DNA of 64,000 nucleotides from Pseudoalteromonas ulvae UL12 (lineage in GTDB: Bacteria > Pseudomonadota > Gammaproteobacteria > Enterobacterales > Alteromonadaceae). The notes beneath the pieces were generated by a model. It was not told the DNA's origin, ran no database searches, and saw only the letters and a program-made list of their open reading frames with translations. Below, piece by piece: positions 37,984 to 63,203 of the stretch. Positions within the stretch are counted from its first letter, which is position 1. Every line of letters starts with the position of its first letter. The DNA is taken from the NCBI RefSeq assembly GCF_014925405.1, contig NZ_AQHJ01000021.1, positions 6,468 to 70,467 of the forward strand, written 5' to 3'. The position numbers and the translations under genes are program-made.

Positions 37984-38002
37984 ACGAGGCATTGGCCATC
38001 GT
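37984..38002 (+). promoter_or_regulatory. Leader hairpin (copy 1)
   Basis: ACGAGGCATTGGCCATCGT: ACGA/TCGT and GGC/GCC stems, loop ATTG, unpaired A. Ends 17 nt before the start codon. Confidence 0.85.
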
Positions 38003-38019
38003 GAATATAGGTGAAAAAT

Positions 38020-38436
38020 ATGGAATCAAAATCATTCTGCGAACAGGAGGTGTTGGCATTAATTGCTGATGCTGAAAATACGTTCTTATCTGAAGAATAT
38101 GATCGCTTAAACGGTATGTGTGAGTCGTTCCTAAAGCCGCTTGATAGGTTGAGAAACGAAAGACTTTCAGATACTAGCGATTCATTGTTAAGAGTTAGTA
38201 CTTATCTGAAAAAGTTGTCCTGTAACATTAATGGCCGAATCAAAGGCTTTAAAGGAAAGGATGAAGAGGCTTTTCAGCTTGGTAGCTGGTTTATGTTTTG
38301 GTGTGATAGTAAATCCGGAGAATTATCGACTGTTGGTCGGGTTAATCTCTTCCGATATTTGAACTCTAAAAGACAACCGGTAGAAATAACTAACAACGTG
38401 GTGGCGTTAGATGGTTGGAATAAAAAGGTCGCATAG
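38020..38436 (+). CDS. Hypothetical protein, 138 aa
   Basis: ATG 38020 preceded by ATAGGTG; an in-frame GTG at 38011 overlaps the ribosome site and is less likely. Soluble protein with Cys residues spaced along the chain and a mostly helical first half; the end FRYLNSKRQPVEITNNVVAL looks beta. It has its own leader hairpin and terminator, so it is a one-gene unit of the array. No family recognised. Confidence 0.65.
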   Translation: MESKSFCEQEVLALIADAENTFLSEEYDRLNGMCESFLKPLDRLRNERLSDTSDSLLRVSTYLKKLSCNINGRIKGFKGKDEEAFQLGSWFMFWCDSKSGELSTVGRVNLFRYLNSKRQPVEITNNVVALDGWNKKVA

Positions 38437-38447
38437 CGGCCTTTTTT
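38422..38447 (+). terminator. Intrinsic terminator
   Basis: AAAAAGGTCGC, GCGGCCTTTTTT. Confidence 0.85.
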
Positions 38448-38524
38448 ATTGGCTTAAATTATTTTTTGATAGATAAGGTTAGGTTGGCATTATATTGGGT
38501 AATATGATCCAGTTGAACGTAAAT

Positions 38525-38545
38525 ACGGGGCAATTGGGCCATCGT
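38525..38545 (+). promoter_or_regulatory. Leader hairpin (copy 2, divergent)
   Basis: ACGGGGCAATTGGGCCATCGT: ACGG pairs TCGT with a G-U, GGC pairs GCC around a six-base loop, unpaired A kept. Confidence 0.7.
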
Positions 38546-38569
38546 GTTAATATTTATAAGGTGTTTAAT

Positions 38570-38914
38570 GTGAATGAATATAAAGAATGTCCTCGATGTC
38601 ACTCTAGCGTCGAAGCGCGTGTAACTGTATGTGGTAACTGTAAAGCAGTGGAACACGTTGGATGGACTGATAAAGAGTTTGGGCTGTACAGAAATAAGGT
38701 TTGGGGCAGTATTGTATTGCTTTCAATCTTAGGCATGTTCTTTGTGCCATCTTACCTAAATAAAAACTTTGATCTGGAAATTGGTAATTTCTTCAGTATT
38801 GGGCCAATTGGCGTTTTGGTATTGGGTGCAGTCGCTTTTGCAATCGCACACATGGCAGCAAAATCAAAAGAAGCAAAGAATAGCAACCTGGTCAGATGGT
38901 TCTGGAATGAGTAG
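38570..38914 (+). CDS. Zinc-ribbon membrane protein, 114 aa
   Basis: I place the start at GTG 38570 (AAGG eight bases upstream) because the leader hairpin at 38525-38545 lies inside the longer frame that opens at 38495. The N-terminus CPRCHSSVEARVTVCGNC is a four-Cys zinc ribbon. Two membrane helices follow (about residues 48-65 and 77-99), then a basic tail. The fold type is a cytoplasmic zinc ribbon on a membrane hairpin. Function unknown. Its terminator overlaps the start of the next unit. Confidence 0.7.
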   Translation: MNEYKECPRCHSSVEARVTVCGNCKAVEHVGWTDKEFGLYRNKVWGSIVLLSILGMFFVPSYLNKNFDLEIGNFFSIGPIGVLVLGAVAFAIAHMAAKSKEAKNSNLVRWFWNE

Positions 38915-38936
38915 GTTTTCTACTTATTAATAAAAC

Positions 38937-38960
38937 AACCGGCTAATGCCGGTTTTTTTT
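38937..38960 (+). terminator. Intrinsic terminator
   Basis: AACCGGC-taat-GCCGGTT plus T tract. Confidence 0.88.
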
Positions 38961-39019
38961 ATGTATGTATCACTATTCAAAGAGCAGTAATGGCAAAATA
39001 TGGAGGTTGATTAGTAAAT

Positions 39020-39038
39020 ACGAGGCATTGGCCATCGT
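39020..39038 (+). promoter_or_regulatory. Leader hairpin (copy 3)
   Basis: ACGAGGCATTGGCCATCGT, 18 nt before ATG 39056 and followed by TTGAGG. Confidence 0.88.
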
Positions 39039-39055
39039 GAAATTGAGGAATAATT

Positions 39056-40024
39056 ATGACTTTGGATATGTTTGCTTGTAGTGATGACTCAGCAAAGTTA
39101 ACAGTGTTATCTATGGGATTAGGGCAGGATAGTACAGCGCTTCTTTATAAGTATGTTTATGATGAGCACTTTAAAAAGCAGTACGCACCAAATGATTTTT
39201 TGGTGATTTTTTCTGATACAGGGAACGAATTCCCCCAGACCTATGAACATTTAGAAAGCATTAAGATATTTTGTGAAACTCACGGTATTGAATTTGTTCA
39301 TCTAATACCTGAGATGGGATATCACACTGGAGATTGGCAATCTCTTGAGCACTTCTATGAAGTAAAAGAAGCTGTTGGATCAAAAGCCTACCCTAAAATT
39401 TGTAGTCAACGACTGAAAATTGAGCCTATTTATCGTTATTTAGAAGATTATTTAGGTCAAAAATACGGTGTTAAAGTTGGTAAGAAAAAAGGGTTTCGAC
39501 AATTTGCTGTTGAGTTCGGAAAAGTACAGATGATGATCGGTATTGCAAAGAACGAAGAAAAGCGAATGAGTGATGCGGCTGATAGAAAAGAGCGCTGGTA
39601 TCGTGAATCTATCGAACATATTTACCCTTTGGTTGATATGAACATGGATCGCAAAGGTTGTCAGACGTATATAAAGTCTGTTGGCCATAAGATACCAATT
39701 CCTAGTAACTGCATGATGTGTCCGTTTTTGTCTGAGGAAGAATTGGAGTATCTGCGTAGATTCGAACCTAAAGCTTTAGAAAATTGGATTTACTACGAAA
39801 AGCGTAAGCTTAATCGTTGGAGCCATTTAGAAGCTGTGCCGGTTAATAAAGGCACTGATGATGAACCGCGAATTGTATACGTCAATAAAAACCTGGGCGT
39901 ATGGGGCAAACGTCGATTACCGGAAATGGTAAGTATCGTTCAAGAAAAGTTTAAAAACTGGACTGATGATATGATCATCGATTACCGAATGTCACATGGT
40001 CACTGTGTTGCTTCGGCATACTAA
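39056..40024 (+). CDS. PAPS reductase-like PP-loop protein, 322 aa
   Basis: The N-terminus has a nucleotide-binding PP-loop, LSMGLGQDSTALLY, then VIFSDTGNEFPQTY, the usual second motif of the PAPS-reductase/adenine-nucleotide alpha-hydrolase family. KICSQRLKIEPI and the late SNCMMCPFLSEEE supply Cys residues that could bind a metal cluster. Phage and plasmid relatives are common and some act in DNA modification, but this one lacks partner dnd genes here, so its substrate is unknown. It has its own leader hairpin and terminator. Confidence 0.85.
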   Translation: MTLDMFACSDDSAKLTVLSMGLGQDSTALLYKYVYDEHFKKQYAPNDFLVIFSDTGNEFPQTYEHLESIKIFCETHGIEFVHLIPEMGYHTGDWQSLEHFYEVKEAVGSKAYPKICSQRLKIEPIYRYLEDYLGQKYGVKVGKKKGFRQFAVEFGKVQMMIGIAKNEEKRMSDAADRKERWYRESIEHIYPLVDMNMDRKGCQTYIKSVGHKIPIPSNCMMCPFLSEEELEYLRRFEPKALENWIYYEKRKLNRWSHLEAVPVNKGTDDEPRIVYVNKNLGVWGKRRLPEMVSIVQEKFKNWTDDMIIDYRMSHGHCVASAY

Positions 40025-40027
40025 AAA

Positions 40028-40053
40028 AATCCGGCATTAGCCGGTTTTTTTTT
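40028..40053 (+). terminator. Intrinsic terminator
   Basis: ATCCGGC-atta-GCCGGT plus T tract. Confidence 0.88.
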
Positions 40054-40109
40054 GCCCTCTCTCCTTAATGCTTATAAGCATGGCAAAATATAGAGGTTGA
40101 TTAGTAAAT

Positions 40110-40128
40110 ACGAGGCATTGGCCATCGT
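40110..40128 (+). promoter_or_regulatory. Leader hairpin (copy 4)
   Basis: ACGAGGCATTGGCCATCGT, 15 nt before ATG 40143. Confidence 0.88.
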
Positions 40129-40142
40129 GATAAGGAATAAAT

Positions 40143-40577
40143 ATGAAAAAGGTAGAGGTTTATCTTAACCGTAAAGCTATGGGTAAAAGTCCTAAGCGAA
40201 TTTACTCTATTAGAGACACTATAACGGATACCGTTGTTGCTTCTAATAGTTGTGTTCTGCTTGAGAATGTTGAGCTTGTCGTTCAACCCAGCGGTCGTAG
40301 AGATACGTTATCGCGTATCGAGCGAGGTGCCAAAATAACGAAAACAGTTCATGCGTTCCTTCGTGGCAATATTGTCTATCGAGGAAGAAATGCTAAGAAA
40401 GTGAGTAAAGAACGAGGTTTATTTTGTGCCGGTAAAGCCGTTGGTTATGATCCGATTAAAACGGATTCATGGCTAGAGCTGAATGGGTTAAAAATGCCTG
40501 AAATTGTCGAAGGTCTTAAATCGATAACAAGAGCTAAATATGCTGTTTTGTTTGAAGATGGGATCTACGTTTTATAA
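40143..40577 (+). CDS. Hypothetical protein, 144 aa
   Basis: ATG with AAGGAATAA upstream. Basic, beta-rich N-terminal half (KKVEVYLNRKAMGKSPKRIY; IRDTITDTVVASNS) with RRDTLSR-type basic patches that could bind nucleic acid, then an alpha/beta end (ITRAKYAVLFEDGIYVL). No family recognised. Single-gene unit of the array. Confidence 0.68.
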   Translation: MKKVEVYLNRKAMGKSPKRIYSIRDTITDTVVASNSCVLLENVELVVQPSGRRDTLSRIERGAKITKTVHAFLRGNIVYRGRNAKKVSKERGLFCAGKAVGYDPIKTDSWLELNGLKMPEIVEGLKSITRAKYAVLFEDGIYVL

Positions 40578-40598
40578 AAGCCCTTCTGGGCTTTTTTT
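40576..40598 (+). terminator. Intrinsic terminator
   Basis: AAAAGCCC-ttct-GGGCTTTTTTT. Confidence 0.88.
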
Positions 40599-40657
40599 AT
40601 TTTGAAGCAAATTCAGGGTTAATTATCACGATAAACTAGAGTTGTAATTAAGTAATA

Positions 40658-40676
40658 ACGAGGCACTGGCCATCGT
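40658..40676 (+). promoter_or_regulatory. Leader hairpin (copy 5)
   Basis: ACGAGGCACTGGCCATCGT; the loop is ACTG instead of ATTG, the stem unchanged. 18 nt before ATG 40695. Confidence 0.88.
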
Positions 40677-40694
40677 GAAATTGAGGAAAATATT

Positions 40695-41000
40695 ATGCAA
40701 ACTTTAGTTAATGTAGAAAAAATCGATCCTAGTATTGCTGCTTGGATGGCTGCCCTTGAAGCTGACTTTGAATATGTTGAGTTACAAGAGCTATTTTCTG
40801 GTGAATTCGGAATTGCCTTTCAAGATGTATATTCTGTCATTACAGGAAATTTTCAACATTTAGATGATGTGTTATCTAAATGTTTATTAGCGAATGAACG
40901 TAGTGATGTAGATCATGTTATTAATACGCTTGCTGAAATAGGTGCAATAGAAACTGTTGGTGACTTTGTTGCGTTAGCACCAAGCAAAAACCTGTCGTAA
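40695..41000 (+). CDS. Acidic hypothetical protein, 101 aa
   Basis: ATG with TTGAGGAAAA upstream. Small, acidic, mostly helical (SIAAWMAALEADFEYVELQE, ITGNFQHLDDVLSK). No Cys beyond one and no membrane segment. DNA-mimic-like acidity is compatible with anti-restriction type proteins, but that is a guess. Own leader hairpin; the terminator overlaps the last codons. Confidence 0.66.
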   Translation: MQTLVNVEKIDPSIAAWMAALEADFEYVELQELFSGEFGIAFQDVYSVITGNFQHLDDVLSKCLLANERSDVDHVINTLAEIGAIETVGDFVALAPSKNLS

Positions 41001-41015
41001 GACGGGTTTTTTTTT
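40986..41015 (+). terminator. Intrinsic terminator
   Basis: AACCTGTC-gtaa-GACGGGTT plus T tract, overlapping the stop. Confidence 0.82.
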
Positions 41016-41070
41016 GCTTGTCACTTCTATGTTAAAGGAGCTGATAAGCTAGAGGGGAATTTAAGTAGAT

Positions 41071-41089
41071 ACGAGGCATTGGCCATCGT
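41071..41089 (+). promoter_or_regulatory. Leader hairpin (copy 6)
   Basis: ACGAGGCATTGGCCATCGT, 14 nt before ATG 41104. Confidence 0.88.
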
Positions 41090-41103
41090 GAATAGGAGTT
41101 AAT

Positions 41104-41553
41104 ATGAAACTGATTATGTGGACTAATGGTGACAAGCTTATACGTGGCGCTGTCGTTGAAAGGCGAGAGAGTCGAAATAAGTATGCAGTAGACATCATAC
41201 TTGAAGATGGACGTTGGTTTAACAACGCTCCGGAACGAGCGTTAATGCTTAACATTAATTGGATCCTTACTGATCAGGATGTTGATACTAATGAGGTAAA
41301 TACCTGGTTAGAGCTAAGTAAAGTACGCGAACAGTATGTGTTTAGTGCGGTAGTAACACTTCAATCTAATGGTGAGAAGGCTGGTGTAAATATTTATCGT
41401 AGAGCACCGGTTATCAAAGCAAAGAATATTGAAGAGGCTGAGTTATCAATTCGTCGTCACTATGGCGATGATTGTGTCTTAGAAATATCAGATTTAAAAT
41501 TATCTGACTGCCAAATCGGGCCTATCTGGTGCGATACAATAGAAGCCTCTTAA
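41104..41553 (+). CDS. Hypothetical protein, 149 aa
   Basis: ATG with AGGAG upstream. The first 50 residues are beta-rich (LIMWTNGDKLIRGAVVERRESRN, in part); the second half has ANNRRAP-like VNIYRRAPVIKAKNIEEAEL and RRHYGDDCVLEISDL, an alpha/beta pattern. The end of the gene overlaps the terminator. No family recognised. Own leader hairpin. Confidence 0.66.
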   Translation: MKLIMWTNGDKLIRGAVVERRESRNKYAVDIILEDGRWFNNAPERALMLNINWILTDQDVDTNEVNTWLELSKVREQYVFSAVVTLQSNGEKAGVNIYRRAPVIKAKNIEEAELSIRRHYGDDCVLEISDLKLSDCQIGPIWCDTIEAS

Positions 41554-41569
41554 AGAGGCTTTTATTTTT
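41542..41569 (+). terminator. Intrinsic terminator
   Basis: GAAGCCTCT-taa-AGAGGCTTTT. Confidence 0.82.
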
Positions 41570-41584
41570 CGTGAGGTGTAATTG

Positions 41585-41866
41585 ATGGAGCAGAACGGAC
41601 AAGCTGTAATTTTGTTTTCATTTAAAGTTCAGGGAGTGGATTTCGAACAGTACTGTTACTGTAAAGAAAATGACTTTGATGTTTATGGTGTACGGCTTGT
41701 AACAATGCCGGAAGTCATCAAAGGTGTTTCTGATGATAAGTGGGAAGCTAAGGAAGATTTTAAGTTCAATTTGCTGCTTAGTAATAACAGCGAGTTACAT
41801 TCTGCAGTTAGTAGTTCTACATGTAGAATTATCGAAAAAGAAGGCGGAACTATCGCCTTGAATTAA
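41585..41866 (+). CDS. Hypothetical protein, 93 aa
   Basis: ATG 41585 with GTGAGGTG upstream. It has no leader hairpin and starts only 32 nt after the previous stop, so it may rely on read-through. Content: QAVILFSFKVQGVDFEQYCY (beta), then a mixed segment. The palindrome lies inside the gene at 41815-41828. No family recognised. Confidence 0.58.
   Translation: MEQNGQAVILFSFKVQGVDFEQYCYCKENDFDVYGVRLVTMPEVIKGVSDDKWEAKEDFKFNLLLSNNSELHSAVSSSTCRIIEKEGGTIALN
41815..41828. repeat. 14-bp palindrome TTCTACATGTAGAA (copy 5)
   Basis: Perfect copy inside the 93-aa gene. Confidence 0.8.
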
Positions 41867-41902
41867 ATAATTATTATAACGATATACTGCCCCCAACCAT
41901 TT

Positions 41903-41926
41903 ACCCCGCACTGCGGGGTTTTTTTT
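41903..41926 (+). terminator. Intrinsic terminator
   Basis: ACCCCGC-ac-TGCGGGGT plus T tract. Confidence 0.87.
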
Positions 41927-41983
41927 ATTCAACGGCTCTACAAATGCCTGTTTGTGGCAAAATAATCATGATTTTTAGTAAAT

Positions 41984-42002
41984 ACGAGGCATTGGCCATC
42001 GT
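41984..42002 (+). promoter_or_regulatory. Leader hairpin (copy 7)
   Basis: ACGAGGCATTGGCCATCGT, 17 nt before ATG 42020; leader after the hairpin nearly identical to copy 1. Confidence 0.88.
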
Positions 42003-42019
42003 GAATAAAGGTGAAAAAT

Positions 42020-43135
42020 ATGAAAACATTAAAGCAAGCAGTAGAGTGTCTAACGTCTTTTGGTAATGCAGTAGACTTTAAAGGTTTGAAAAAACTGTAT
42101 AAAAAAGCTGCGTTATTGGTGCATTCAGATCGAGCGAAAGAGCATGGTTGTTCTTACAATATGGTTGATTTGAATAATGCCTGGGGCATGATCAGCAATA
42201 ACGTTGAATCAGCGTTGATGCTAATTGAAGGTAGTGAAGTTCTAGAAAAGGCTCGCGTTTTTGCGAACTCTTGGAAAGACGATCCTCTTCATGAAGCGTC
42301 AGTTCCAAGTTTTTACACTGTAGAAACTATGGCTAAGAAAGCTTGGAACATTGTTGAGGATGGTGAAGACGGTAACTTCGTCTGGTTTAATCCTAGTAAG
42401 CATGTTACTTACATTAAGGATTCTAATCTGGAGTATCGCTACTATTACGGTGGTGATGTTATCAGCTTTTATGATCTTGAAAACTCATTTAAAACGGGCA
42501 AAGAGTGTACCGGCTTTCGTGTATGCCATGACCGTTTAACTGATCGTAGTTTTATGGAGATTTGGAGTGAAATTCTGAATGAGTATTGCGAGACTCCAAC
42601 ACCCAAAGGTGTGTGGACTTGGCTTACAAGTTTAGAAATGGTTGATAATGGTCGTTATCACGGTAAATGCGCTGAAATTAAAGTGGGTGATAGTTCAGTA
42701 CGGGTATATGAAGACAATGTATCCGGCAACAAAAACTTCTCGCCATTTGTGATTAATCGCGTTAAGCCAGTTGCATCGATGCCAAAAAAATGGACGGTAG
42801 TACAGCTTAGAAAAATATTGGCTAATGGTCAATTTTCAAAGTATAAGCAGGACTACTATATGACCGATGATTATGCTGGAGATGCGGCAAGTAACTTTCG
42901 CAAAGGGTATTACCAAAATCCTCTTGATAGTTATGCTGATATCCTTACGTGTAATCACATGCGGGTTTGGAGTAACCAAAATGAAGACGGTACAGTAGTT
43001 CTACATTTGGGTGCTCATAGCAATGACGGTCGCTCTTTAATTGTTGATTTAAATAATCGGTATCCAATAGTTGATATGGAAGCGGAAGAGGCTCAATACC
43101 TTACCGGTGATATAAAGCTTATAGATGCTGCCTAA
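42020..43135 (+). CDS. J-domain-like protein, 371 aa
   Basis: ATG 42020 with AAAGGTG upstream; GTG 42011 is in frame. Residues 15-65 resemble a DnaJ J-domain: LKKLYKKAALLVHSDRAKEHG then MVDLNNAWGMI, with HSD in place of the canonical HPD that activates Hsp70. The remainder (about 300 aa) contains many aromatic residues and no zinc finger, and is unrecognised. Plasmid J-domain-like proteins can recruit host chaperones, but the HSD change may abolish this. Own leader hairpin and terminator. Confidence 0.72.
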   Translation: MKTLKQAVECLTSFGNAVDFKGLKKLYKKAALLVHSDRAKEHGCSYNMVDLNNAWGMISNNVESALMLIEGSEVLEKARVFANSWKDDPLHEASVPSFYTVETMAKKAWNIVEDGEDGNFVWFNPSKHVTYIKDSNLEYRYYYGGDVISFYDLENSFKTGKECTGFRVCHDRLTDRSFMEIWSEILNEYCETPTPKGVWTWLTSLEMVDNGRYHGKCAEIKVGDSSVRVYEDNVSGNKNFSPFVINRVKPVASMPKKWTVVQLRKILANGQFSKYKQDYYMTDDYAGDAASNFRKGYYQNPLDSYADILTCNHMRVWSNQNEDGTVVLHLGAHSNDGRSLIVDLNNRYPIVDMEAEEAQYLTGDIKLIDAA

Positions 43136-43140
43136 AATAG

Positions 43141-43167
43141 AAAACCTCGCTTAGCGGGGTTTTTTTA
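43141..43167 (+). terminator. Intrinsic terminator
   Basis: AAAACCTCGC-tta-GCGGGGTTTTTTT. Confidence 0.85.
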
Positions 43168-43224
43168 TGTCTGTCGTAAAATTCATTGCGTTAAATGGTA
43201 TATTGATCCGGATTTTAAGTAATA

Positions 43225-43243
43225 ACGAGGCATTGGCCATCGT
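43225..43243 (+). promoter_or_regulatory. Leader hairpin (copy 8)
   Basis: ACGAGGCATTGGCCATCGT, 19 nt before ATG 43262. TATATT near 43200 may be the -10. Confidence 0.88.
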
Positions 43244-43261
43244 GTAAATGAGGAAAATAAT

Positions 43262-44629
43262 ATGACTATTGTACGTGCAACATACAGCCCAGAAGACAAC
43301 AAATTGCGTATCTACACTAACGGTGAACGTGTTAGTGATGATGTTTATGCTTTGTTAAAAGAGAAAGGGTTTAAGTGGGCACCGGTTCAAAAGCTTTTTG
43401 TTAAACCAAGATGGACGCCAAGTTGTGAAGACTTGTGTATTCAATTGGCCGGTAACATTGTAGCTGAAGAAACTACCTTACTTGAACGTGCTGAAGTGAA
43501 AGCTGAGCGACTTGACTCTTTAGCTGAAAAGCGTTCGTCACAGTCAGATGCATTTGTTTCTGCAGCTATTCGTTTAGCGGAAAGAATGAGTTTTGGCCAA
43601 CCTATATTGGTAGGACATCATTCAGAACGTCGAGCGAGAAAAGATGCAGAGCAGGTAGAGCGATTACATGAAAAAGCGGTAGAAGCTGCTGACGCGGTAT
43701 CTTATTGGCTATACAGAGCTGAAGGGGTAGAACGTCACGCTAACTACAAAAACGATCCAGATGTTCGAGCAAGAAGGATTAAAACACTACTTGCTGAACT
43801 ACGTGATGATCAAAGAACGCTTAATCATGCTCAGATATGCATTAAGCTTTGGAGCGACATCGATGCAATTGAAGATGCAGAGAAGAAGCCTAAGTATGTT
43901 CGTCATTATGCCGGTTCGATGTTAAAGACTGGCTCCACTACACCTTCGGGTTTTTGGAGTGCTTTGGATCGAGCTGAAATGACTGAACAAGAGGTGATTG
44001 ATAAATCACTTCAATGGGCTAACGGTATTGCTAACAGTGTTTTTTATGCAAGACGTATTCAACATACATTGAATCGACTTGGTTATGAACGCTTCATGTT
44101 GGGTGATACTGTTCGTTTCGAAGATGCGCTGACGGCAACCATAATCAAGGCATTTGCTCGTGATAATGGTGCTCATAAACCAGAGTGCAAGAAAGTAGAG
44201 GGGAATTGGAAGTTAACTTCTAGTGTTCCGTTACCTCTGCATATTGGAGAAGGTGAAGTGTTGTCGTTGTCTGATGTTGAATGGAAAGACCTGATGCAAT
44301 CGTGTGGTTATGAAGTACCTATTAAGAAACCGGCTAAGCCGCCGATTCTTAACTTCAGAGCTGAATCGATTAAAGGGGTTGTTTTTCGCAATGTGACTAC
44401 GTTGCGCCAAGTGGTGATGACTAAAGCTGAGTATTCAGATATTTATTCTGATTATCGCGGTGTAAAAGATTCATCATGTGGCCAATTCCGTTTTAAGATG
44501 TGCAAGGATCCTAATCACAAGGGGCCAGGTTATTCAGCTGAATGGGTAGCTGTTTTCTTGTCGGATTCTAAAGAACATCCTATGCCGGAAAGTGACGCAA
44601 TTATCAAGGTAGAACAGGATGCAGCCTAA
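43262..44629 (+). CDS. DUF3560-type plasmid protein, 455 aa
   Basis: ATG with GAGGAAAA upstream. The N-terminus (RATYSPEDNKLRIYTNGERV, then GFKWAPVQKLFVKPRWTP) and a long helical middle rich in Arg/Glu with FGQPILVGHHSERRARKD are hallmarks I know from the DUF3560 family, common on plasmids and next to methyltransferase genes. The function of DUF3560 is not established. The stop shares a base with the start of the methyltransferase gene, giving a two-gene unit under one leader hairpin. Confidence 0.82.
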   Translation: MTIVRATYSPEDNKLRIYTNGERVSDDVYALLKEKGFKWAPVQKLFVKPRWTPSCEDLCIQLAGNIVAEETTLLERAEVKAERLDSLAEKRSSQSDAFVSAAIRLAERMSFGQPILVGHHSERRARKDAEQVERLHEKAVEAADAVSYWLYRAEGVERHANYKNDPDVRARRIKTLLAELRDDQRTLNHAQICIKLWSDIDAIEDAEKKPKYVRHYAGSMLKTGSTTPSGFWSALDRAEMTEQEVIDKSLQWANGIANSVFYARRIQHTLNRLGYERFMLGDTVRFEDALTATIIKAFARDNGAHKPECKKVEGNWKLTSSVPLPLHIGEGEVLSLSDVEWKDLMQSCGYEVPIKKPAKPPILNFRAESIKGVVFRNVTTLRQVVMTKAEYSDIYSDYRGVKDSSCGQFRFKMCKDPNHKGPGYSAEWVAVFLSDSKEHPMPESDAIIKVEQDAA

Positions 44630-45324: not shown

Positions 45325-45341
45325 GTATATTGGAGATAATT

Positions 45342-56363: not shown

Positions 56364-56486
56364 ATTTGTCTGGGGGCCAACGGTAGCGCGCGCTCTAGGT
56401 GAGTGTGAAACGCTCACCTAGAGCGCGCGCGCCCTACGACACAATTGCTTGTGATGTGTCGGAGGGGCCGTGGCCCCCAGGCAAAT
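56364..56486. repeat. Branched inverted-repeat structure (two hairpins inside an outer stem)
   Basis: Outer stem: ATTTG-T-CTGGGGGCCA-CGG (56364-56383) pairs with 56468-56486 with one G-T pair and one bulge. Inside: an 18-bp perfect stem, 56386-56403 with 56413-56430 (GCGCGCGCTCTAGGTGAG), and a second hairpin CGACACA/TGTGTCG at 56437-56461. Likely a DNA-level recognition site such as an origin of replication, oriT or attachment site. Confidence 0.75.
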
Positions 56487-56714
56487 GTTGAGGCGCTGAA
56501 AGCCCGAGCAATTTGACTTTAGAGGGGGAGTGAAACGACCACCATTACCCCGCCGCGACTTTGGAGCGGTGGCAAAAATAGGCTTTGCTTGTGATGTGAC
56601 ATAGCTAGATCGTCAGATCATTTTAATATCGATTTAGATCAAAAGTTCGAATAATTTTTTTGTTGTCATGTGTTGAAATCGAAGTAGCACGATAGTCGTT
56701 CAAGTTCGAATATT

Positions 56715-56780
56715 GAGTTATCCATCATGCGCCCACTACAGACCGGAGGAATAATCTGTCGTGGCAATTGTGGGTAACTC
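56715..56780. repeat. 65-bp imperfect hairpin element (copy B)
   Basis: Same arms as copy A, loop CCGGAGGAATAA; GAGTTATCC with GGGTAACTC. Confidence 0.75.
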
Positions 56781-56783
56781 TGC

Positions 56784-56797
56784 TTCTACATGTAGAA
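56784..56797. repeat. 14-bp palindrome TTCTACATGTAGAA (copy 7)
   Basis: Perfect copy 3 nt after the 65-bp hairpin and in the promoter region of the DUF3577-like gene. Confidence 0.8.
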
Positions 56798-56880
56798 TAC
56801 AAAGCTGGATAGATTAAATATTTTTAGTCCCCCTTTATTCAAAAATAGATAGGTATACTGTTTGTGATTGTTAAGTAATA

Positions 56881-56899
56881 ACGAAATTTTGATTATCGT
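56881..56899 (+). promoter_or_regulatory. Leader hairpin (copy 16)
   Basis: ACGAAATTTTGATTATCGT: ACGA/TCGT and AAT/ATT stems, loop TTTG, unpaired A. The stem changes on both sides relative to other copies. 15 nt before ATG 56915. GGTATACTG near 56852 is the likely -10. Confidence 0.85.
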
Positions 56900-56914
56900 A
56901 AAGAGGAAAATATC

Positions 56915-57280
56915 ATGACTGATTCAAATACATCTAAAGACTTTATCGGCACAACTGCTTTTGGTTATTTCAAAAAACTTTCAGTATTACCTAGTGGTAC
57001 TGAAGTTGCAGAAATTTCATTAATGGCTGGTGAAGACAAAGGCGGTAAAACACGTTACTTAAATGGTAGTTTTATCGTTTCTGATAAAACAGAAGGTCTT
57101 CGTGGTGCTGAGCGTCAACTTAAGGAAGCTCAAGCTGCTAAAGCTGACGCGGCAGTTCTTGTTGTAGTCCAAGTTAAGGATTTACACGGAGAGCCGTCTA
57201 AAGCCAAAAAGTCAGATGCGCTTTATGTTAACTATCGTGGTTTGTTGCAAAGTGTTCGCGTACACACCAAGAAAAGCTAA
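56915..57280 (+). CDS. DUF3577/STY4534-like ICE protein, 121 aa (first copy)
   Basis: ATG with AGAGGAAAATA upstream. FIGTTAFGYFKKLSVLPSGT then KTRYLNGSFIVSDKTEGLRG and LVVVQVKDLHGEPSKAKKSD resemble in layout the DUF3577 (STY4534-type ICE replication) family, single-strand-binding-like in fold. The match is moderate and from memory. Controlled by its own leader hairpin, unlike the minus-strand genes next to it. An identical copy lies at 59767. Confidence 0.65.
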   Translation: MTDSNTSKDFIGTTAFGYFKKLSVLPSGTEVAEISLMAGEDKGGKTRYLNGSFIVSDKTEGLRGAERQLKEAQAAKADAAVLVVVQVKDLHGEPSKAKKSDALYVNYRGLLQSVRVHTKKS

Positions 57281-57300
57281 TTAAAGTAACCTGAATAAAG

Positions 57301-57325
57301 AAACCGGCTTATGCCGGTTTTTTTC
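57301..57325 (+). terminator. Intrinsic terminator
   Basis: AAACCGGC-ttat-GCCGGTTTTTTT. A second copy lies at 60153-60177. Confidence 0.87.
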
Positions 57326-57336
57326 TGTCTAAAATG

Positions 57337-58425
57337 TTATTGTTGGTATTGCATTAGCTGCCCTTCAAGTTTGGCGCAAACCTTATGAGAGTCACTTAAC
57401 TCTGACTGGGCTTTGTTTAAGAATGTTTCGCACTTATCTAATTCTTTAGTTAAGGTGTCTACGCGGCTCTGTGTACGAATATTTAATGAATTAATTTCGT
57501 CTAGCTTAGCCTGAAGCTCAGAGGCTTCTGATGATTTCAAATCTACTTGTTCAATGAGTGATTCAATTTTGGCGTCTGCCTTAGCGCTTGCTTGTTGTAG
57601 CTGCTCGTTCTTAGCTGCTGCAGCTTCAATTGCCTGACTTTGTTTCTCTACCTGCTTGGTAAGAGATTCTATTGTTGAACCGGCTTTTGTGTTTGTTTTC
57701 TGAAGCTGTTCAATATTTGCTTTTGAGGTCGATATTTCTTTGTTTTTCTGATCTAACTGTTGAGTTAAAGACTCGACATGCCCCAGGGCTTTTGCTTTTT
57801 CAGATTCAGCCAGGTTCAATGCTTTTTGCATTTCTGATATTTGAACTTGTTGTTTTGCTAATCGTTCATCACGCTCAGCTACAGAGGATAGAGCTGCCTT
57901 TGTTTCGCTATTAGCTACATCTAGCGAGGCTTTTAGTTGACTCCCAATTTTGTTTGCGTGAGTAAGCTCTTCCTGCTTCTCAGATATTACCTCCAATGCA
58001 TCTTCAAGTTGCTCAAAGGCTTTGTCCTGCTCTTCAATAGAATCTGCCTCACGCTTGGCCGCATTTGCCGCGTGTTCGTTTGCTTCAATTATTGCCTTAT
58101 TAAGTCTTTGTTCAACAGTGTGGTGAGCATGGTCGTTAATCTGGTGAACTAACTTTTCAACATCGCCAAGGATTACAGATAACATTTCAGACACTTCAGG
58201 AGGTAATTCCTGATGAATAATAGTTTGTTCAAGTAATTCAGGAACTGTAGGGGCCAAAATCCTTCCATCCGACTCAAGTGCTTTATATACGTCCATCAAT
58301 GCTGATGGACGGCCTGTACCCACTTTATTGCGTAAGGATGTGCCGTTTATGTTCTTGCCTTCGGCTAATAAGTTGTTGGCTGCATCAATTACCTGCTGAT
58401 CTGTAAAAGCTCTTTCTCTGGCCAT
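57337..58425 (-). CDS. kfrA: KfrA-like DNA-binding coiled-coil protein (first copy)
   Basis: The N-terminal KfrA domain (residues about 1-100: FTDQQVIDAANNLLAEGKNI, GTGRPSALMDVYKAL) is followed by a very long coiled coil to residue 350. KfrA proteins help plasmid segregation and regulate their own gene. The start has GAGGGG upstream, and the 60 bp before it are packed with GTTTGT repeats, its likely operator. An identical copy lies at 60189-61277. No parA or parB is near. Confidence 0.88.
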   Translation of the reverse strand: MARERAFTDQQVIDAANNLLAEGKNINGTSLRNKVGTGRPSALMDVYKALESDGRILAPTVPELLEQTIIHQELPPEVSEMLSVILGDVEKLVHQINDHAHHTVEQRLNKAIIEANEHAANAAKREADSIEEQDKAFEQLEDALEVISEKQEELTHANKIGSQLKASLDVANSETKAALSSVAERDERLAKQQVQISEMQKALNLAESEKAKALGHVESLTQQLDQKNKEISTSKANIEQLQKTNTKAGSTIESLTKQVEKQSQAIEAAAAKNEQLQQASAKADAKIESLIEQVDLKSSEASELQAKLDEINSLNIRTQSRVDTLTKELDKCETFLNKAQSELSDSHKVCAKLEGQLMQYQQ

Positions 58426-58450
58426 GTTGCCCCTCGTTCATAGAATAGTA

Positions 58451-58508
58451 ATGTTTGTATGTTTGTAATATAACAAACAAACAAATGAAAAACAAACAAA
58501 CAAACAAT
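58451..58508. promoter_or_regulatory. KfrA operator repeats (first copy)
   Basis: TGTTTGT motifs on both strands (TGTTTGTATGTTTGTAATA then ACAAACAAACAAA and ACAAACAAACAAACA) immediately upstream of kfrA. Likely autoregulatory sites, by analogy with known KfrA. Confidence 0.7.
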
Positions 58509-58740
58509 AAATATGAGTGAAATTTAATCATTAATTTCTTTCAATTAACACCATCTTTTATTAGGGAAATAAATTATTAAATTACAATGGGTTACACGTA
58601 AATGAATTTGTTTAGTAATTATTTGTGTTGATTGGATATAAATCCTAGTCGATATATGTAATAGGGTTGTGGCGTTTGGTTCAGGTGTTTTTTGTAAAAC
58701 AGAAATAAGAGGGGGAGTTGTCTTGCAGAAAGAGGTAGGT
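58509..58740. other. Intergenic region
   Basis: About 230 bp between the kfrA operator and the end of the RHH gene. AT-rich. A G-run near 58711 (AGAGGGGGAGTTG) is the only notable feature. No gene supported. Confidence 0.5.
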
Positions 58741-58759
58741 TTCTACATGTAGAAACCTA
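58736..58759. repeat. Extended palindrome containing TTCTACATGTAGAA (copy 8)
   Basis: The 14-bp core at 58741-58754 lies in a 24-bp perfect palindrome (58736-58759) at the end of the RHH gene. It is the most symmetrical copy. Confidence 0.82.
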
Positions 58760-58984
58760 ATGTGTATCTGTGTTTTTTTTGTTTGGTGGATTTACGACCT
58801 GAATTGACGCTTGAACTACTGCTTCTCTGGCAAATAAAGAGCGCTTTTTACCTGTGAGTTTAACCGCATCTTCGAATATTTGGTTTTGTTCGTCATTAAG
58901 GTTTAATGTGAAACGCGGGTGTAATTTATCTTCGTCTGATTTTTGCGGAGCACCCCGACCTTTCTTTACTTCATCGTCTGTCAT
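58757..58984 (-). CDS. Ribbon-helix-helix-type protein, 75 aa (first copy)
   Basis: ATG start. LHPRFTLNLNDEQNQIFEDA (strand then helix) and KKRSLFAREAVVQASIQV (helix) fit a ribbon-helix-helix DNA-binding domain, with a charged disordered N-terminus (KGRGAPQKSDEDK). Such proteins act as plasmid partition or copy regulators and could bind the palindromes. An identical copy lies at 61609. Confidence 0.75.
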   Translation of the reverse strand: MTDDEVKKGRGAPQKSDEDKLHPRFTLNLNDEQNQIFEDAVKLTGKKRSLFAREAVVQASIQVVNPPNKKNTDTH

Positions 58985-59068
58985 AGCCTTCTTTACCGAT
59001 AAATTAGTGAATTAAAACTGTGCTTATTTTAACACTGGTAAGGAAGGCTATTTGGTATATAAAATAAT

Positions 59069-59303
59069 TTAGTCTATACCACCTGCTCTGCGAATTTGCT
59101 TTTGATGCACCAGGTTGAATACTTCGAGGAACCTACGCCAATTGCTATATCTCAAGGTTTTAGTCCTGGGTTTTCCTTTTTTACCTGTTTTGGGGTTATG
59201 GGATACGTGGTCGATTGCTCTTGAACTTGCAAGAAACTTTAATGTTTCTGTGTTAATTCCTAGCAGCATACTTAACTCGCCAAAAGTAAAACCAGTCCAA
59301 AAT
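59069..59303 (-). pseudogene. 3' fragment of the HTH-repeat gene (from duplication)
   Basis: The coding frame matches the last 78 or so codons of the gene at 61921-63090 exactly (FTFGELSMLLGINTETLKFL and onward) and then runs into unrelated duplicated DNA at 59304. No start or ribosome site belongs to it. It is the truncated leftover at the duplication boundary. A short internal ATG at 59269 is open but unlikely to be used. Confidence 0.82.
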
Positions 59304-59566
59304 TGATGTGTCGGAGGGGCCGTGGCCCCCAGGCAAATGTTGAGGCGCTGAAAGCCCGAGCAATTTGACTTTAGAGGGGGAGTGAAACGACCACCATTAC
59401 CCCGCCGCGACTTTGGAGCGGTGGCAAAAATAGGCTTTGCTTGTGATGTGACATAGCTAGATCGTCAGATCATTTTAATATCGATTTAGATCAAAAGTTC
59501 GAATAATTTTTTTGTTGTCATGTGTTGAAATCGAAGTAGCACGATAGTCGTTCAAGTTCGAATATT

Positions 59567-59632
59567 GAGTTATCCATCATGCGCCCACTACAGACCGGAG
59601 GAATAATCTGTCGTGGCAATTGTGGGTAACTC
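59567..59632. repeat. 65-bp imperfect hairpin element (copy C)
   Basis: Identical to copy B. Confidence 0.75.
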
Positions 59633-59635
59633 TGC

Positions 59636-59649
59636 TTCTACATGTAGAA
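59636..59649. repeat. 14-bp palindrome TTCTACATGTAGAA (copy 9)
   Basis: Identical to copy 7 by duplication. Confidence 0.8.
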
Positions 59650-59732
59650 TACAAAGCTGGATAGATTAAATATTTTTAGTCCCCCTTTATTCAAAAATAG
59701 ATAGGTATACTGTTTGTGATTGTTAAGTAATA

Positions 59733-59751
59733 ACGAAATTTTGATTATCGT
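59733..59751 (+). promoter_or_regulatory. Leader hairpin (copy 16, duplicated)
   Basis: Identical to the hairpin at 56881. Confidence 0.85.
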
Positions 59752-59766
59752 AAAGAGGAAAATATC

Positions 59767-60132
59767 ATGACTGATTCAAATACATCTAAAGACTTTATCG
59801 GCACAACTGCTTTTGGTTATTTCAAAAAACTTTCAGTATTACCTAGTGGTACTGAAGTTGCAGAAATTTCATTAATGGCTGGTGAAGACAAAGGCGGTAA
59901 AACACGTTACTTAAATGGTAGTTTTATCGTTTCTGATAAAACAGAAGGTCTTCGTGGTGCTGAGCGTCAACTTAAGGAAGCTCAAGCTGCTAAAGCTGAC
60001 GCGGCAGTTCTTGTTGTAGTCCAAGTTAAGGATTTACACGGAGAGCCGTCTAAAGCCAAAAAGTCAGATGCGCTTTATGTTAACTATCGTGGTTTGTTGC
60101 AAAGTGTTCGCGTACACACCAAGAAAAGCTAA
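59767..60132 (+). CDS. DUF3577/STY4534-like ICE protein (second copy)
   Basis: Identical in sequence to 56915-57280, including its leader hairpin and terminator at 60153-60177. If real, the duplication doubles its gene dosage. Confidence 0.65.
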   Translation: MTDSNTSKDFIGTTAFGYFKKLSVLPSGTEVAEISLMAGEDKGGKTRYLNGSFIVSDKTEGLRGAERQLKEAQAAKADAAVLVVVQVKDLHGEPSKAKKSDALYVNYRGLLQSVRVHTKKS

Positions 60133-60188
60133 TTAAAGTAACCTGAATAAAGAAACCGGCTTATGCCGGTTTTTTTCTGTCTAAAATG

Positions 60189-61277
60189 TTATTGTTGGTA
60201 TTGCATTAGCTGCCCTTCAAGTTTGGCGCAAACCTTATGAGAGTCACTTAACTCTGACTGGGCTTTGTTTAAGAATGTTTCGCACTTATCTAATTCTTTA
60301 GTTAAGGTGTCTACGCGGCTCTGTGTACGAATATTTAATGAATTAATTTCGTCTAGCTTAGCCTGAAGCTCAGAGGCTTCTGATGATTTCAAATCTACTT
60401 GTTCAATGAGTGATTCAATTTTGGCGTCTGCCTTAGCGCTTGCTTGTTGTAGCTGCTCGTTCTTAGCTGCTGCAGCTTCAATTGCCTGACTTTGTTTCTC
60501 TACCTGCTTGGTAAGAGATTCTATTGTTGAACCGGCTTTTGTGTTTGTTTTCTGAAGCTGTTCAATATTTGCTTTTGAGGTCGATATTTCTTTGTTTTTC
60601 TGATCTAACTGTTGAGTTAAAGACTCGACATGCCCCAGGGCTTTTGCTTTTTCAGATTCAGCCAGGTTCAATGCTTTTTGCATTTCTGATATTTGAACTT
60701 GTTGTTTTGCTAATCGTTCATCACGCTCAGCTACAGAGGATAGAGCTGCCTTTGTTTCGCTATTAGCTACATCTAGCGAGGCTTTTAGTTGACTCCCAAT
60801 TTTGTTTGCGTGAGTAAGCTCTTCCTGCTTCTCAGATATTACCTCCAATGCATCTTCAAGTTGCTCAAAGGCTTTGTCCTGCTCTTCAATAGAATCTGCC
60901 TCACGCTTGGCCGCATTTGCCGCGTGTTCGTTTGCTTCAATTATTGCCTTATTAAGTCTTTGTTCAACAGTGTGGTGAGCATGGTCGTTAATCTGGTGAA
61001 CTAACTTTTCAACATCGCCAAGGATTACAGATAACATTTCAGACACTTCAGGAGGTAATTCCTGATGAATAATAGTTTGTTCAAGTAATTCAGGAACTGT
61101 AGGGGCCAAAATCCTTCCATCCGACTCAAGTGCTTTATATACGTCCATCAATGCTGATGGACGGCCTGTACCCACTTTATTGCGTAAGGATGTGCCGTTT
61201 ATGTTCTTGCCTTCGGCTAATAAGTTGTTGGCTGCATCAATTACCTGCTGATCTGTAAAAGCTCTTTCTCTGGCCAT
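60189..61277 (-). CDS. kfrA: KfrA-like protein (second copy)
   Basis: Identical to 57337-58425. Its operator repeats are at 61303-61360. Two identical copies would probably titrate the same operators. Confidence 0.88.
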   Translation of the reverse strand: MARERAFTDQQVIDAANNLLAEGKNINGTSLRNKVGTGRPSALMDVYKALESDGRILAPTVPELLEQTIIHQELPPEVSEMLSVILGDVEKLVHQINDHAHHTVEQRLNKAIIEANEHAANAAKREADSIEEQDKAFEQLEDALEVISEKQEELTHANKIGSQLKASLDVANSETKAALSSVAERDERLAKQQVQISEMQKALNLAESEKAKALGHVESLTQQLDQKNKEISTSKANIEQLQKTNTKAGSTIESLTKQVEKQSQAIEAAAAKNEQLQQASAKADAKIESLIEQVDLKSSEASELQAKLDEINSLNIRTQSRVDTLTKELDKCETFLNKAQSELSDSHKVCAKLEGQLMQYQQ

Positions 61278-61302
61278 GTTGCCCCTCGTTCATAGAATAG
61301 TA

Positions 61303-61360
61303 ATGTTTGTATGTTTGTAATATAACAAACAAACAAATGAAAAACAAACAAACAAACAAT
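61303..61360. promoter_or_regulatory. KfrA operator repeats (second copy)
   Basis: Same GTTTGT/ACAAAC clusters as at 58451-58508. Confidence 0.7.
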
Positions 61361-61587
61361 AAATATGAGTGAAATTTAATCATTAATTTCTTTCAATTAA
61401 CACCATCTTTTATTAGGGAAATAAATTATTAAATTACAATGGGTTACACGTAAATGAATTTGTTTAGTAATTATTTGTGTTGATTGGATATAAATCCTAG
61501 TCGATATATGTAATAGGGTTGTGGCGTTTGGTTCAGGTGTTTTTTGTAAAACAGAAATAAGAGGGGGAGTTGTCTTGCAGAAAGAGG

Positions 61588-61611
61588 TAGGTTTCTACAT
61601 GTAGAAACCTA
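61588..61611. repeat. Extended palindrome containing TTCTACATGTAGAA (copy 10)
   Basis: Duplicate of 58736-58759. Confidence 0.82.
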
Positions 61612-61836
61612 ATGTGTATCTGTGTTTTTTTTGTTTGGTGGATTTACGACCTGAATTGACGCTTGAACTACTGCTTCTCTGGCAAATAAAGAGCGCTTTT
61701 TACCTGTGAGTTTAACCGCATCTTCGAATATTTGGTTTTGTTCGTCATTAAGGTTTAATGTGAAACGCGGGTGTAATTTATCTTCGTCTGATTTTTGCGG
61801 AGCACCCCGACCTTTCTTTACTTCATCGTCTGTCAT
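61609..61836 (-). CDS. Ribbon-helix-helix-type protein (second copy)
   Basis: Identical to 58757-58984; lies just downstream of the intact HTH-repeat gene, 84 nt away, and may be co-transcribed with it. This is the arrangement expected before the duplication. Confidence 0.75.
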   Translation of the reverse strand: MTDDEVKKGRGAPQKSDEDKLHPRFTLNLNDEQNQIFEDAVKLTGKKRSLFAREAVVQASIQVVNPPNKKNTDTH

Positions 61837-61920
61837 AGCCTTCTTTACCGATAAATTAGTGAATTAAAACTGTGCTTATTTTAACACTGGTAAGGAAGGC
61901 TATTTGGTATATAAAATAAT

Positions 61921-63090
61921 TTAGTCTATACCACCTGCTCTGCGAATTTGCTTTTGATGCACCAGGTTGAATACTTCGAGGAACCTACGCCAATTGCTAT
62001 ATCTCAAGGTTTTAGTCCTGGGTTTTCCTTTTTTACCTGTTTTGGGGTTATGGGATACGTGGTCGATTGCTCTTGAACTTGCAAGAAACTTTAATGTTTC
62101 TGTGTTAATTCCTAGCAGCATACTTAACTCGCCAAAAGTAAAACCAGTCCAAAATAACATCGCTCTTAATTCTAGCGGTTCAGGTGGTGCGTATTCTACT
62201 GTGGTGATAGGATAATGAGGCTTAGCTTTGTTTCTAAAAACCCTAGAACGCATATCTCCGCTTAGTTCATCTTCGTAATCAGCCGCGTAAAATTGGCGTA
62301 ATTCTTCAAGTGGCGGTTTTTCATCTTCGTAACCACCTTCTTTTGCTTTATCACGCCATTCCTTGTATGGGGAACGATAGGTGAATTCAGGGCTTAAAGC
62401 AGACTCTTTAATAGATGGAACCTTTGTAATATATGTGGAGTCTTTTATGCCTAGAGCTTTTCTTATTGCTTGCCATTCACCTACATCGAGTGACACCTGG
62501 GCTGAGTGAATATTAGTTAAAGAAAAGTCATGCTTAGGGGTAACATATTCCAAATCATCATTGATGATCGTATCCCCTCTATGAACATTATCAATAAGCT
62601 TATTAAGATTTACACCGGACTCTTCTGAAACACTTTCAACACTACGCCCAGACAAGCCGATTAATAAGTAAAGCTCATGTTTTGTAGGTAGAATAACGGA
62701 TGTTTCTAACACCTCTTCTCGCACATCTGCAAAACGAGGCTTAATGATCAAGCGTTCTATAATACCTGCTGACTCAACTAACATCCCCCACATATTGCTA
62801 GGAACTCTAGCGCCATTCTCATACGCAGTTTGTGAGATCATGCCATTGAAGTTACGGTTATCAATTGATAGCCACCGGCATATATCACCTGTACTCATAC
62901 CGGTTACTTCTTTGAAGTGGCCGTAATCGTATGGTGTGGGAGCTTCGTACTTAGGGTTTTGTTTTAAAAAACCTTTAGGGTTTGTATAGAAGGGTTGCTG
63001 TAAGCATTCGGGTCTGAAGCTTTGGAAAGCAGTGCTATCTCGGCCAAGACCAAAATGTTGCTGTAAGAATTCTGAAATTGAACTATTCAT
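61921..63090 (-). CDS. HTH-repeat protein, 389 aa, possible replication or regulatory protein
   Basis: Start at ATG 63090 with TTGGAGATAC upstream; an upstream start at 63144 has no ribosome site. At least three similar helix-rich segments: GMSTGDICRWLSIDNRNFNG, LIGLSGRSVESVSEESGVNL and FTFGELSMLLGINTETLKFL, each like the HTH of regulators. The C-terminus is basic (KTGKKGKPRTKTLRY). I do not recognise a known replication initiator family, yet place beside tandem repeats and KfrA fits a maintenance role. Confidence 0.7.
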   Translation of the reverse strand: MNSSISEFLQQHFGLGRDSTAFQSFRPECLQQPFYTNPKGFLKQNPKYEAPTPYDYGHFKEVTGMSTGDICRWLSIDNRNFNGMISQTAYENGARVPSNMWGMLVESAGIIERLIIKPRFADVREEVLETSVILPTKHELYLLIGLSGRSVESVSEESGVNLNKLIDNVHRGDTIINDDLEYVTPKHDFSLTNIHSAQVSLDVGEWQAIRKALGIKDSTYITKVPSIKESALSPEFTYRSPYKEWRDKAKEGGYEDEKPPLEELRQFYAADYEDELSGDMRSRVFRNKAKPHYPITTVEYAPPEPLELRAMLFWTGFTFGELSMLLGINTETLKFLASSRAIDHVSHNPKTGKKGKPRTKTLRYSNWRRFLEVFNLVHQKQIRRAGGID

Positions 63091-63184
63091 AATGTATCTC
63101 CAATATATGCGATGAACTTTTTTTCTCGCTACGTGATGAATCATACATTATTTTCGGTATACTGGTGTCGTTGATATAAAAAAA

Positions 63185-63203
63185 GCGAAGCATTAGCTAT
63201 CGC
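63185..63203 (+). promoter_or_regulatory. Leader hairpin (copy 17)
   Basis: GCGAAGCATTAGCTATCGC, loop ATTA. GGTATACTGG at about 63156 is the likely -10. Here 110 nt, containing a second hairpin, separate it from the start codon. Confidence 0.88.

Follow-up and report, generated by a model that had tools for sequence, protein, structure and literature searches.

A covarying leader hairpin family on a plasmid-type element of Pseudoalteromonas ulvae and its relatives

A short hairpin recurs ahead of small genes in a 64,000-base stretch of Pseudoalteromonas ulvae UL12 DNA (the window; G000:C20:6468-70467, part of a contig of 70,467 bases in a genome of 4.74 Mb). These hairpins are a real, element-specific family of covarying leaders, which to judge by sequence looks most like a recognition site on nascent RNA. 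The genes of the element, identified by their relatives, include ParA- and ParB-type genes, a type IV secretion system of the integrative and conjugative element type, and pilus genes; this secretion and pilus part of the window is followed by about 26 kb of short genes, mostly on the plus strand.

Structure, covariation and placement of the hairpin

The hairpin consists of a 4-bp outer stem, one unpaired base on the 3' side, a 3-bp inner stem, and a variable loop. All 18 positions listed in an initial annotation of this DNA hold it, and two more copies (63109-63129, minus strand; 63448-63467, plus strand) bring the number in the window to 20. The minus-strand copy contradicts the initial statement that all copies lie on the plus strand, and the 19-nt length given there does not extend to the copy at 38525, which is 21 nt long, with six loop nucleotides and a single G-U pair. 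The copy at 59733 is not an independent unit because it repeats the one at 56881 within a tandem duplication. The pattern RCGANNYNNNNRNNATCGY has 17 matches in the window, all on the plus strand, where shuffled sequence is expected to give 0.23; a structure-aware scan of the window returned the 20 copies versus 0.8 in resampled sequence. Within the P. ulvae genome, 15/17 matches of a related pattern fall on the window's contig, and only there is the hairpin multicopy.

Relatives of the hairpin were compared among the window's contig (W), the Alteromonas macleodii plasmid pKD03 (K), the 73.6-kb G168 contig (G), and a fourth plasmid-type element, a 75-kb contig of Alteromonas sp. KUL42. The compensatory stem changes described in the initial annotation were borne out in a wider alignment (A2; 63 rows, 55 distinct), with double changes at five of the seven pairs and a covariation score of 0.453 versus 0.179 when shuffled. 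Pairing was a requirement in the scans behind this alignment and behind the 67-copy set considered below, which makes 100% pairing there a given. A fairer test took all RCGA...TCGY sites, 18-24 nt long, that precede a start codon, with no inner stem required. The inner stem was nevertheless paired in 18/18 (W), 12/12 (K), and 20/22 (G) of these sites, versus 1/32, 6/36, and 4/50, respectively, of those elsewhere. On the KUL42 element, which served as a hold-out (alignment A5), 12 distinct rows showed 100% pairing, double changes at 4/7 pairs, and a score of 0.522 (0.253 when shuffled) that none of 500 shuffles reached.

The 67 copies of W, K, G, and KUL42 that remain after removal of the tandem duplicate and chance-like matches comprise 53 distinct hairpins with 10 different inner 5' triplets and loops of 3-8 nt; a G-U pair occurs in six of them. 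Leaders of PAPS-like genes on three plasmids, for instance, carry the inner 5' triplets GGC, AAC, and GCC, all of them paired. The bulge lies on the side set by gene direction, and in W and K this holds for a minus-strand gene too. Arms that remain complementary while their letters change, spacing that is not constant, and this orientation of the bulge together argue that the hairpin acts as RNA; selection on an RNA structure is very probable. By sequence, there is good support for a hairpin shared among these leaders, covarying and oriented with its genes, whose features are compatible with RNA and with recognition in trans. The unpaired A, said initially never to change, is indeed constant among the window copies, whereas G, C, or T also occur in relatives. 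With A at 48 of the 52 gene-leading sites of W, K, and G, this base is preferred and not invariant.

That these sequences are leaders is a prediction. With the duplicate at 59733 set aside, the start codon in W lies 14-24 nt past the hairpin in 18/19 leaders, a slightly broader range than the 14-19 nt first reported, and 110 nt past the copy at 63185. The best -10 box, sought 12-26 nt upstream, was found at 16-22 nt in all 19, narrowing the 15-25 nt of the initial annotation; when it was sought without a distance limit in three plasmids, it fell at 16-22 nt in 37/49 leaders. Over the 67 leaders, the median distance from the end of the best box to the hairpin is 19 nt (sought at 12-26 nt). The start codon follows 12-24 nt past the hairpin in 55/67 leaders (pKD03 being read as a circle). 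In the other 12 it lies outside this range, yet the position of the hairpin after the -10 box is kept. The operator resembling that of a phage coat protein, as initially proposed, is therefore less well supported: it agrees with the spacing in the 55 leaders and not with that in the 12.

Far start codons were found at 110 nt in W, 69 and 105 nt in K, 117 and about 65 nt (the latter by eye) in G, and 70 and 112 nt in KUL42, where the likely start of five further leaders, with a usual ribosome site, is 112 nt on. In six leaders (these five of KUL42 and the G leader at 117 nt), a strong stem and then a U-run stand between the hairpin and the likely start. The shared insert stem, AAAGGG(G)CA/UGCCC(C)UUU, has constrained energies of -14 to -26 kcal/mol and, with the U-run, looks like a terminator. 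The inner stem of the hairpin in the five KUL42 leaders is AGC/GCU, AGU/GCU, or AGU/ACU, so selection seems to maintain the hairpin here although the likely ribosome site is distant. This is our main reason to prefer a role at the level of transcription, a preference that an in-frame ATG discussed below weakens.

Two leader arrangements are recorded here in their own right. In the six insert leaders (L148, KUL42; L067, G168), the terminator-like stem is accompanied by an alternative hairpin and the ribosome site is enclosed; those of KUL42 also hold an open frame joined to the gene. A conserved large stem-loop lies between the hairpin and the gene of a small hydrophobic protein (window 63185-63320, L048 7011-7135, and the G168 and KUL42 equivalents) and encloses the ribosome site in some folds.

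Distribution on plasmids and island-like regions

The initial annotation had suggested a search of Rfam and of other conjugative elements. No covariance model of an Rfam family matched at gathering score in the window or in the tested relatives (L048-L050, L066, L067, L146, L148, and L149). Beyond the window, the hairpin itself occurs on three more plasmid-type elements and within three island-like regions, so that its architecture recurs in four plasmid-type elements in all. There are 14 strict matches on pKD03 and 25 on the G168 contig, four of which (three on the far strand, one at 31648) were taken as chance. The KUL42 contig was reached via a 389-aa protein encoded in the window and then scanned with a covariance model for which W, K, G, and the islands had supplied 63 copies. 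The 5-Mb KUL42 genome gave 13 matches at E ≤ 0.1, all on the 75-kb contig; a search restricted to that contig returned 14 at E ≤ 0.05, which all share one strand.

In a sample of 394 genomes of the order, scanned with stricter filters, multiple copies were confined to the genome of P. ulvae and G168, and 15 others had one weak match each; the family therefore looks rare. The hairpin pattern was matched in 58 of 295 genomes of the family, P. ulvae included. Scattered matches outside G099, G231, and G288 were taken as chance or coding sequence after the surroundings of seven places had been viewed. A structure before a small gene at 7263 of K and 73176 of G, with an inverted outer stem and, in G, a U bulge, was not counted.

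The island-like regions carry three copies in G231, two in G288 (on a 3.7-Mb contig), where a third has an A-C mismatch, and two in G099 (on a 21.8-kb contig). They precede a recombinase-like gene, TraG_N, and, in G231 and G288, a DUF4224 gene adjoining an integrase; DUF4224 presumably marks an excisionase. By Pfam, the G288 region (island I2) holds DUF4224, Phage_integrase, and TraG_N, i.e., an int/xis module plus TraG on a chromosomal island. Islands and plasmids have TraG and a weakly DUF2857-like protein in common. A reverse transcriptase-domain gene was also seen on the TraG-bearing island I2 (L084, 11362-13191, minus strand).

The Vibrio plasmids pVPUCMV and pXMM117-2 bear genes related to those for the DUF3560, methyltransferase, and J-domain proteins. 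The covariance model found no match on either up to E 0.5. They present instead a 5-bp stem around a CGUU loop, found at 7/24 (pVPUCMV) and 12/23 (pXMM117-2) CGTT sites ahead of genes, compared with 5/780 and 6/415 elsewhere; V. harveyi pVH3 has it at 4/11 such sites. Controls gave 0/19, 0/10, and 0/30 in three other plasmids, 0/8 in W, and 1/17 in K. The Vibrio stems vary as well (ACACC, ATGGC, ATAGT, ATCCC). Word counts ahead of genes revealed no hairpin-like words clearly above control in V. campbellii pIFL1_2, Microbulbifer pTHAF38_a (all but 2,668 bases covered), V. tubiashii p123 (50,000 of 122,808 bases), a Stutzerimonas plasmid, and a Marinobacter plasmid stretch (31,787 of 138,349), nor did they in pVH3 (41,349 of 114,494). 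Coverage of pXMM117-2 was 41,356 of 87,025 bases. The source table types pKD03, pVPUCMV, and pXMM117-2 as non-mobilizable.

Candidate reader and competing explanations

The leading candidate for a trans-acting factor is the 389-aa protein, predicted to contain three helix-turn-helix (HTH) motifs and encoded on the minus strand at 61921-63090. Its gene is itself led by the hairpin in W and K; in G, the hairpin before it has two of the three inner pairs (model E 0.44), and in KUL42 a hairpin is seen before it by eye. A profile of the protein detects relatives in all seven hairpin-bearing plasmids, those of Vibrio being weak (E 1e-7, 0.002, and 0.002), and none in five other plasmids at E up to 1. 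In a plasmid search with the protein, pKD03 was the sole match, and scans of viral contigs yielded no relative.

Other candidates were set aside. Basic proteins like Phage_L5_gp82 are encoded in W, K, and G and have no relative in the hairpin-bearing KUL42 plasmid. The profile of a 96-aa basic protein beside the recombinase also finds pVPUCMV, which has the other hairpin, and pIFL1_2, where no hairpin family was seen. The DUF2857-like protein is common to the four plasmids and the islands, but its known relative acts at promoters. No NusG paralogue, a class to which LoaP presumably belongs, was found on the four plasmids with PF02357.

We tentatively favor, as a possible though far from assured reading, an address tag on nascent RNA that is read by a plasmid regulator in a manner akin to antitermination. 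We infer that the hairpin is transcribed and folded and that the regulator, predicted to be the 389-aa protein, would bind it in trans on the nascent transcript and let RNA polymerase continue into the gene, a positive effect exerted at elongation. The protein might read the conserved outer stem RCGA/UCGY together with the bulge, where a widened groove would admit an HTH helix, while the inner stem and loop would merely maintain shape. Through such a tag the small cargo genes would come under joint control, and islands with it before recombinase, TraG, and excision genes might respond to a resident or incoming plasmid.

Several observations weigh against this proposal. The 55 start codons at 12-24 nt could be explained by a translational operator as well. 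Only 3/67 leaders have a sequence like rrn boxA (at ≤3 mismatches; 0.26 shuffled), most units lack a terminator between hairpin and gene, and the copy at 63448 has no good -10 box nearby. The five KUL42 insert leaders also hold an in-frame ATG 37 nt past the hairpin, so the insert stem could sit within a coding stretch; the whole-leader fold often favors a different structure, and alignment A5 had been fitted to the covariance model. As for the reader, the structure model of the 389-aa protein is of modest confidence (predicted local distance difference test score, 68.6) and resembles DNA-binding HTH proteins, the covariance model reports no hairpin before its KUL42 gene, and at E ≤ 1e-3 a relative is kept in only one of the three Vibrio plasmids. 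PF02357 detected one NusG in each of three of the four genomes or records, on other contigs, and none on pKD03. The copy before the excision gene of island I2 has an A-C mismatch at its outermost pair.

The closest competitor, which we regard as rather unlikely yet worth serious attention, places the plasmid protein at a hairpin a few bases upstream of the Shine-Dalgarno sequence, where it would block or aid ribosome entry; repression would then prevail in an established host and give way to a burst of expression in a new one. The spacing in 55/67 leaders fits this operator. Nevertheless, leaders whose likely ribosome site is 65-117 nt off or enclosed in another stem still have the hairpin with its compensatory changes, and in islands devoid of the repressor the excision gene would always be on unless a further activator is required at its promoter. 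We therefore favor, with low certainty, the nascent-RNA tag over such a coat-protein-like operator. It seems improbable that the reader is a host protein or RNA, with the plasmid only displaying the hairpin. No plasmid protein common to the islands is an obvious RNA binder, and the island stretches read yielded no relative of the 389-aa protein, as a host reader would allow. Against it, the hairpin is multicopy in its own genome on this contig alone, and Vibrio plasmids with related cargo use another hairpin, so that the code follows the element, though the host differs too.

The remaining explanations appear very improbable. An inverted repeat in DNA could bind a repressor or activator just past the transcription start, as HTH proteins usually target inverted repeats near promoters and the candidate factor is modeled with an HTH fold. 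A DNA-binding dimer, however, requires identity to a consensus rather than complementarity, whereas here the arms differ by an extra base, spacing ranges from 3 to 8 nt, inner triplets vary yet stay complementary, and the bulge side tracks gene direction. Equally doubtful is a 5' stem that merely protects or insulates mRNA and was spread by duplication of leader cassettes. Short units arranged head to tail, similar leader flanks within the window, and 36 terminator-like sites on both strands of 37900-54300 (8.6 expected) speak for it, but it has no need for a fixed RCGA/UCGY sequence or a bulge, and 53 distinct hairpins among 67 exceed the diversity expected from recent duplication.

Individual copies, known systems and implications

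On the plus strand of the window, hairpins precede open reading frames (ORFs) of diverse annotation. The copy at 37984-38002 (ACGAGGCATTGGCCATCGT) leads an ORF at 38020-38436, and that at 38525-38545 (ACGGGGCAATTGGGCCATCGT) leads a GTG-initiated ORF at 38570. They are followed by the leaders of a PAPS-reductase-domain gene (hairpin 39020-39038; gene 39056-40024), a Phage_L5_gp82-family gene (40110-40128; 40143-40577), two ORFs (40658-40676 before 40695-41000 and 41071-41089 before 41104-41553), a relative of the annotated J-domain protein of pVPUCMV (41984-42002; 42020-43135), and a DUF3560 gene (43225-43243; 43262-44629). The hairpin at 45306-45324 (GCGAAGCATAGGCTATCGC) leads the ORF 45342-45764. 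Further ORFs at 50493-50852, 51229-51624, 51771-52202, 52329-52697, 53371-53700, and 53840-54166 follow hairpins at 50457-50475, 51194-51212, 51734-51752, 52294-52312, 53336-53354, and 53802-53820, respectively. The copy at 56881-56899 (ACGAAATTTTGATTATCGT) leads the ORF 56915-57280 and is identical to that at 59733-59751, which leads the ORF 59767-60132 in the tandem duplicate. At 63185-63203 the hairpin tops a long leader that also contains a second, large stem-loop, the ATG of a small gene being 110 nt downstream. The copy at 63448-63467 (GCGAGCTAATTTAGCATCGC) overlaps the end of the preceding ORF and is 15 nt from the ATG of a 43-codon ORF, and the minus-strand copy at 63109-63129 (GCGAGAAAAAAAGTTCATCGC) is 18 nt from the ATG of the 389-aa gene.

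The tandem duplication, of about 2.85 kb, spans approximately 56458-62158. Besides the hairpin-led gene and a coiled-coil gene, it takes in part of the 389-aa gene, a 66-aa remnant of which lies at 59069-59269. A large GC-rich inverted repeat (approximately 56384-56440), between a tyrosine-recombinase gene and a hairpin-led 121-aa gene, is a possible origin of transfer; no relaxase was noticed among the genes scanned, in which no search aimed at relaxases was made. Members of this recombinase family are found again in plasmids and islands. A repeat of about 60 bp, GAGTTATCCATCATGC...GTGGGTAAC, at 49410, 56715, and 59575, with one copy near an integrase gene, might be a recombination site. The contig ends in an array of direct repeats of about 47 bp (63640-64000), possible iterons; pKD03 and G168 have similar arrays after the same genes.

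Early transcripts of lambda (N/nut) and HK022 (put) carry promoter-proximal RNA hairpins that are read in an element-specific way. The family described here differs in having no general boxA, no fixed loop, about 20 sites per element, and a very short hairpin. Lambda boxA (CGCTCTTA) at ≤2 mismatches occurs in 1/67 leaders versus 0.86 shuffled, and no fixed GNRA-like boxB loop was found among the 67 copies, the loops being variable (3-8 nt). The ops sequence is absent from all 67 leaders at ≤2 mismatches. In the MS2 coat operator the bulged A belongs to the 5' strand of the stem and the hairpin lies at the start codon; here the bulge is on the opposite, 3' side, as the initial annotation had stated, and the start codon is 13-24 nt on or further. 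The SAS 13-mer (GGGATAGGAGCCC) is likewise absent from all 67 leaders at ≤3 mismatches, the best leader having five. Judged by the features tested, the hairpin falls outside the nut, ops, SAS/ESAS, and MS2 families.

SGI1 carries its own TraG. The island layout recalls that of SGI1, whose excision answers to an IncC helper plasmid through AcaCD (PMC4605294); AcaCD is a transcriptional activator, whereas the island-like regions here carry the plasmid's leader hairpin. BisC of the ICEclc regulator BisDC, which activates promoters, contains a DUF2857 domain (PMC7423338). Its counterpart here would be a 322-aa protein encoded at 1886-2854 (plus strand) near the ParA/ParB-type genes, found in four plasmids and three island-like regions, whose likeness to DUF2857 is weak (E 0.001, below the Pfam cut-off); the comparison yields no link between BisDC and hairpins. 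In IncN plasmids, the regulator ArdK likewise acts on conserved sequences (CUP) before several genes including its own, but CUP are DNA sites bound in gel shifts (PMC6289460), while covariation here indicates RNA. Cluster K mycobacteriophages also repeat an element before many genes of a mobile genome: the function of their ESAS is given as unknown, the inverted repeats have a spacer of mostly 4-13 bp, and the consensus differs between related genomes (PMC3203893; PMC12699233). ESAS arms, however, measure 17 bp and stand beside the 13-mer SAS at the start codon, whereas the present hairpin has a bulged 4+3-bp stem at a fixed distance from the -10 box. LoaP combines leader RNA and antitermination (PMC12691694), as the proposed tag would.

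The plasmid-wide regulons compared act via promoters or DNA sites, whereas the shared signal here looks like an RNA structure; no plasmid-wide regulon of this kind at the RNA level was found in the open-access literature searched. If a plasmid protein reads the hairpin, it would offer mobile DNA a compact way to switch whole gene sets together, provide satellites with a route to sense their helpers, and add a new protein-RNA pair. The different hairpin of Vibrio plasmids with related cargo suggests that the principle is wider than this lineage. Speculatively, and on balance doubtfully, lineages of conjugative plasmids might each mark their cargo leaders with an RNA hairpin code of their own, read on nascent RNA by a plasmid-encoded multi-HTH protein, with cassettes re-coded upon entry into a lineage and satellite islands copying the code to eavesdrop.

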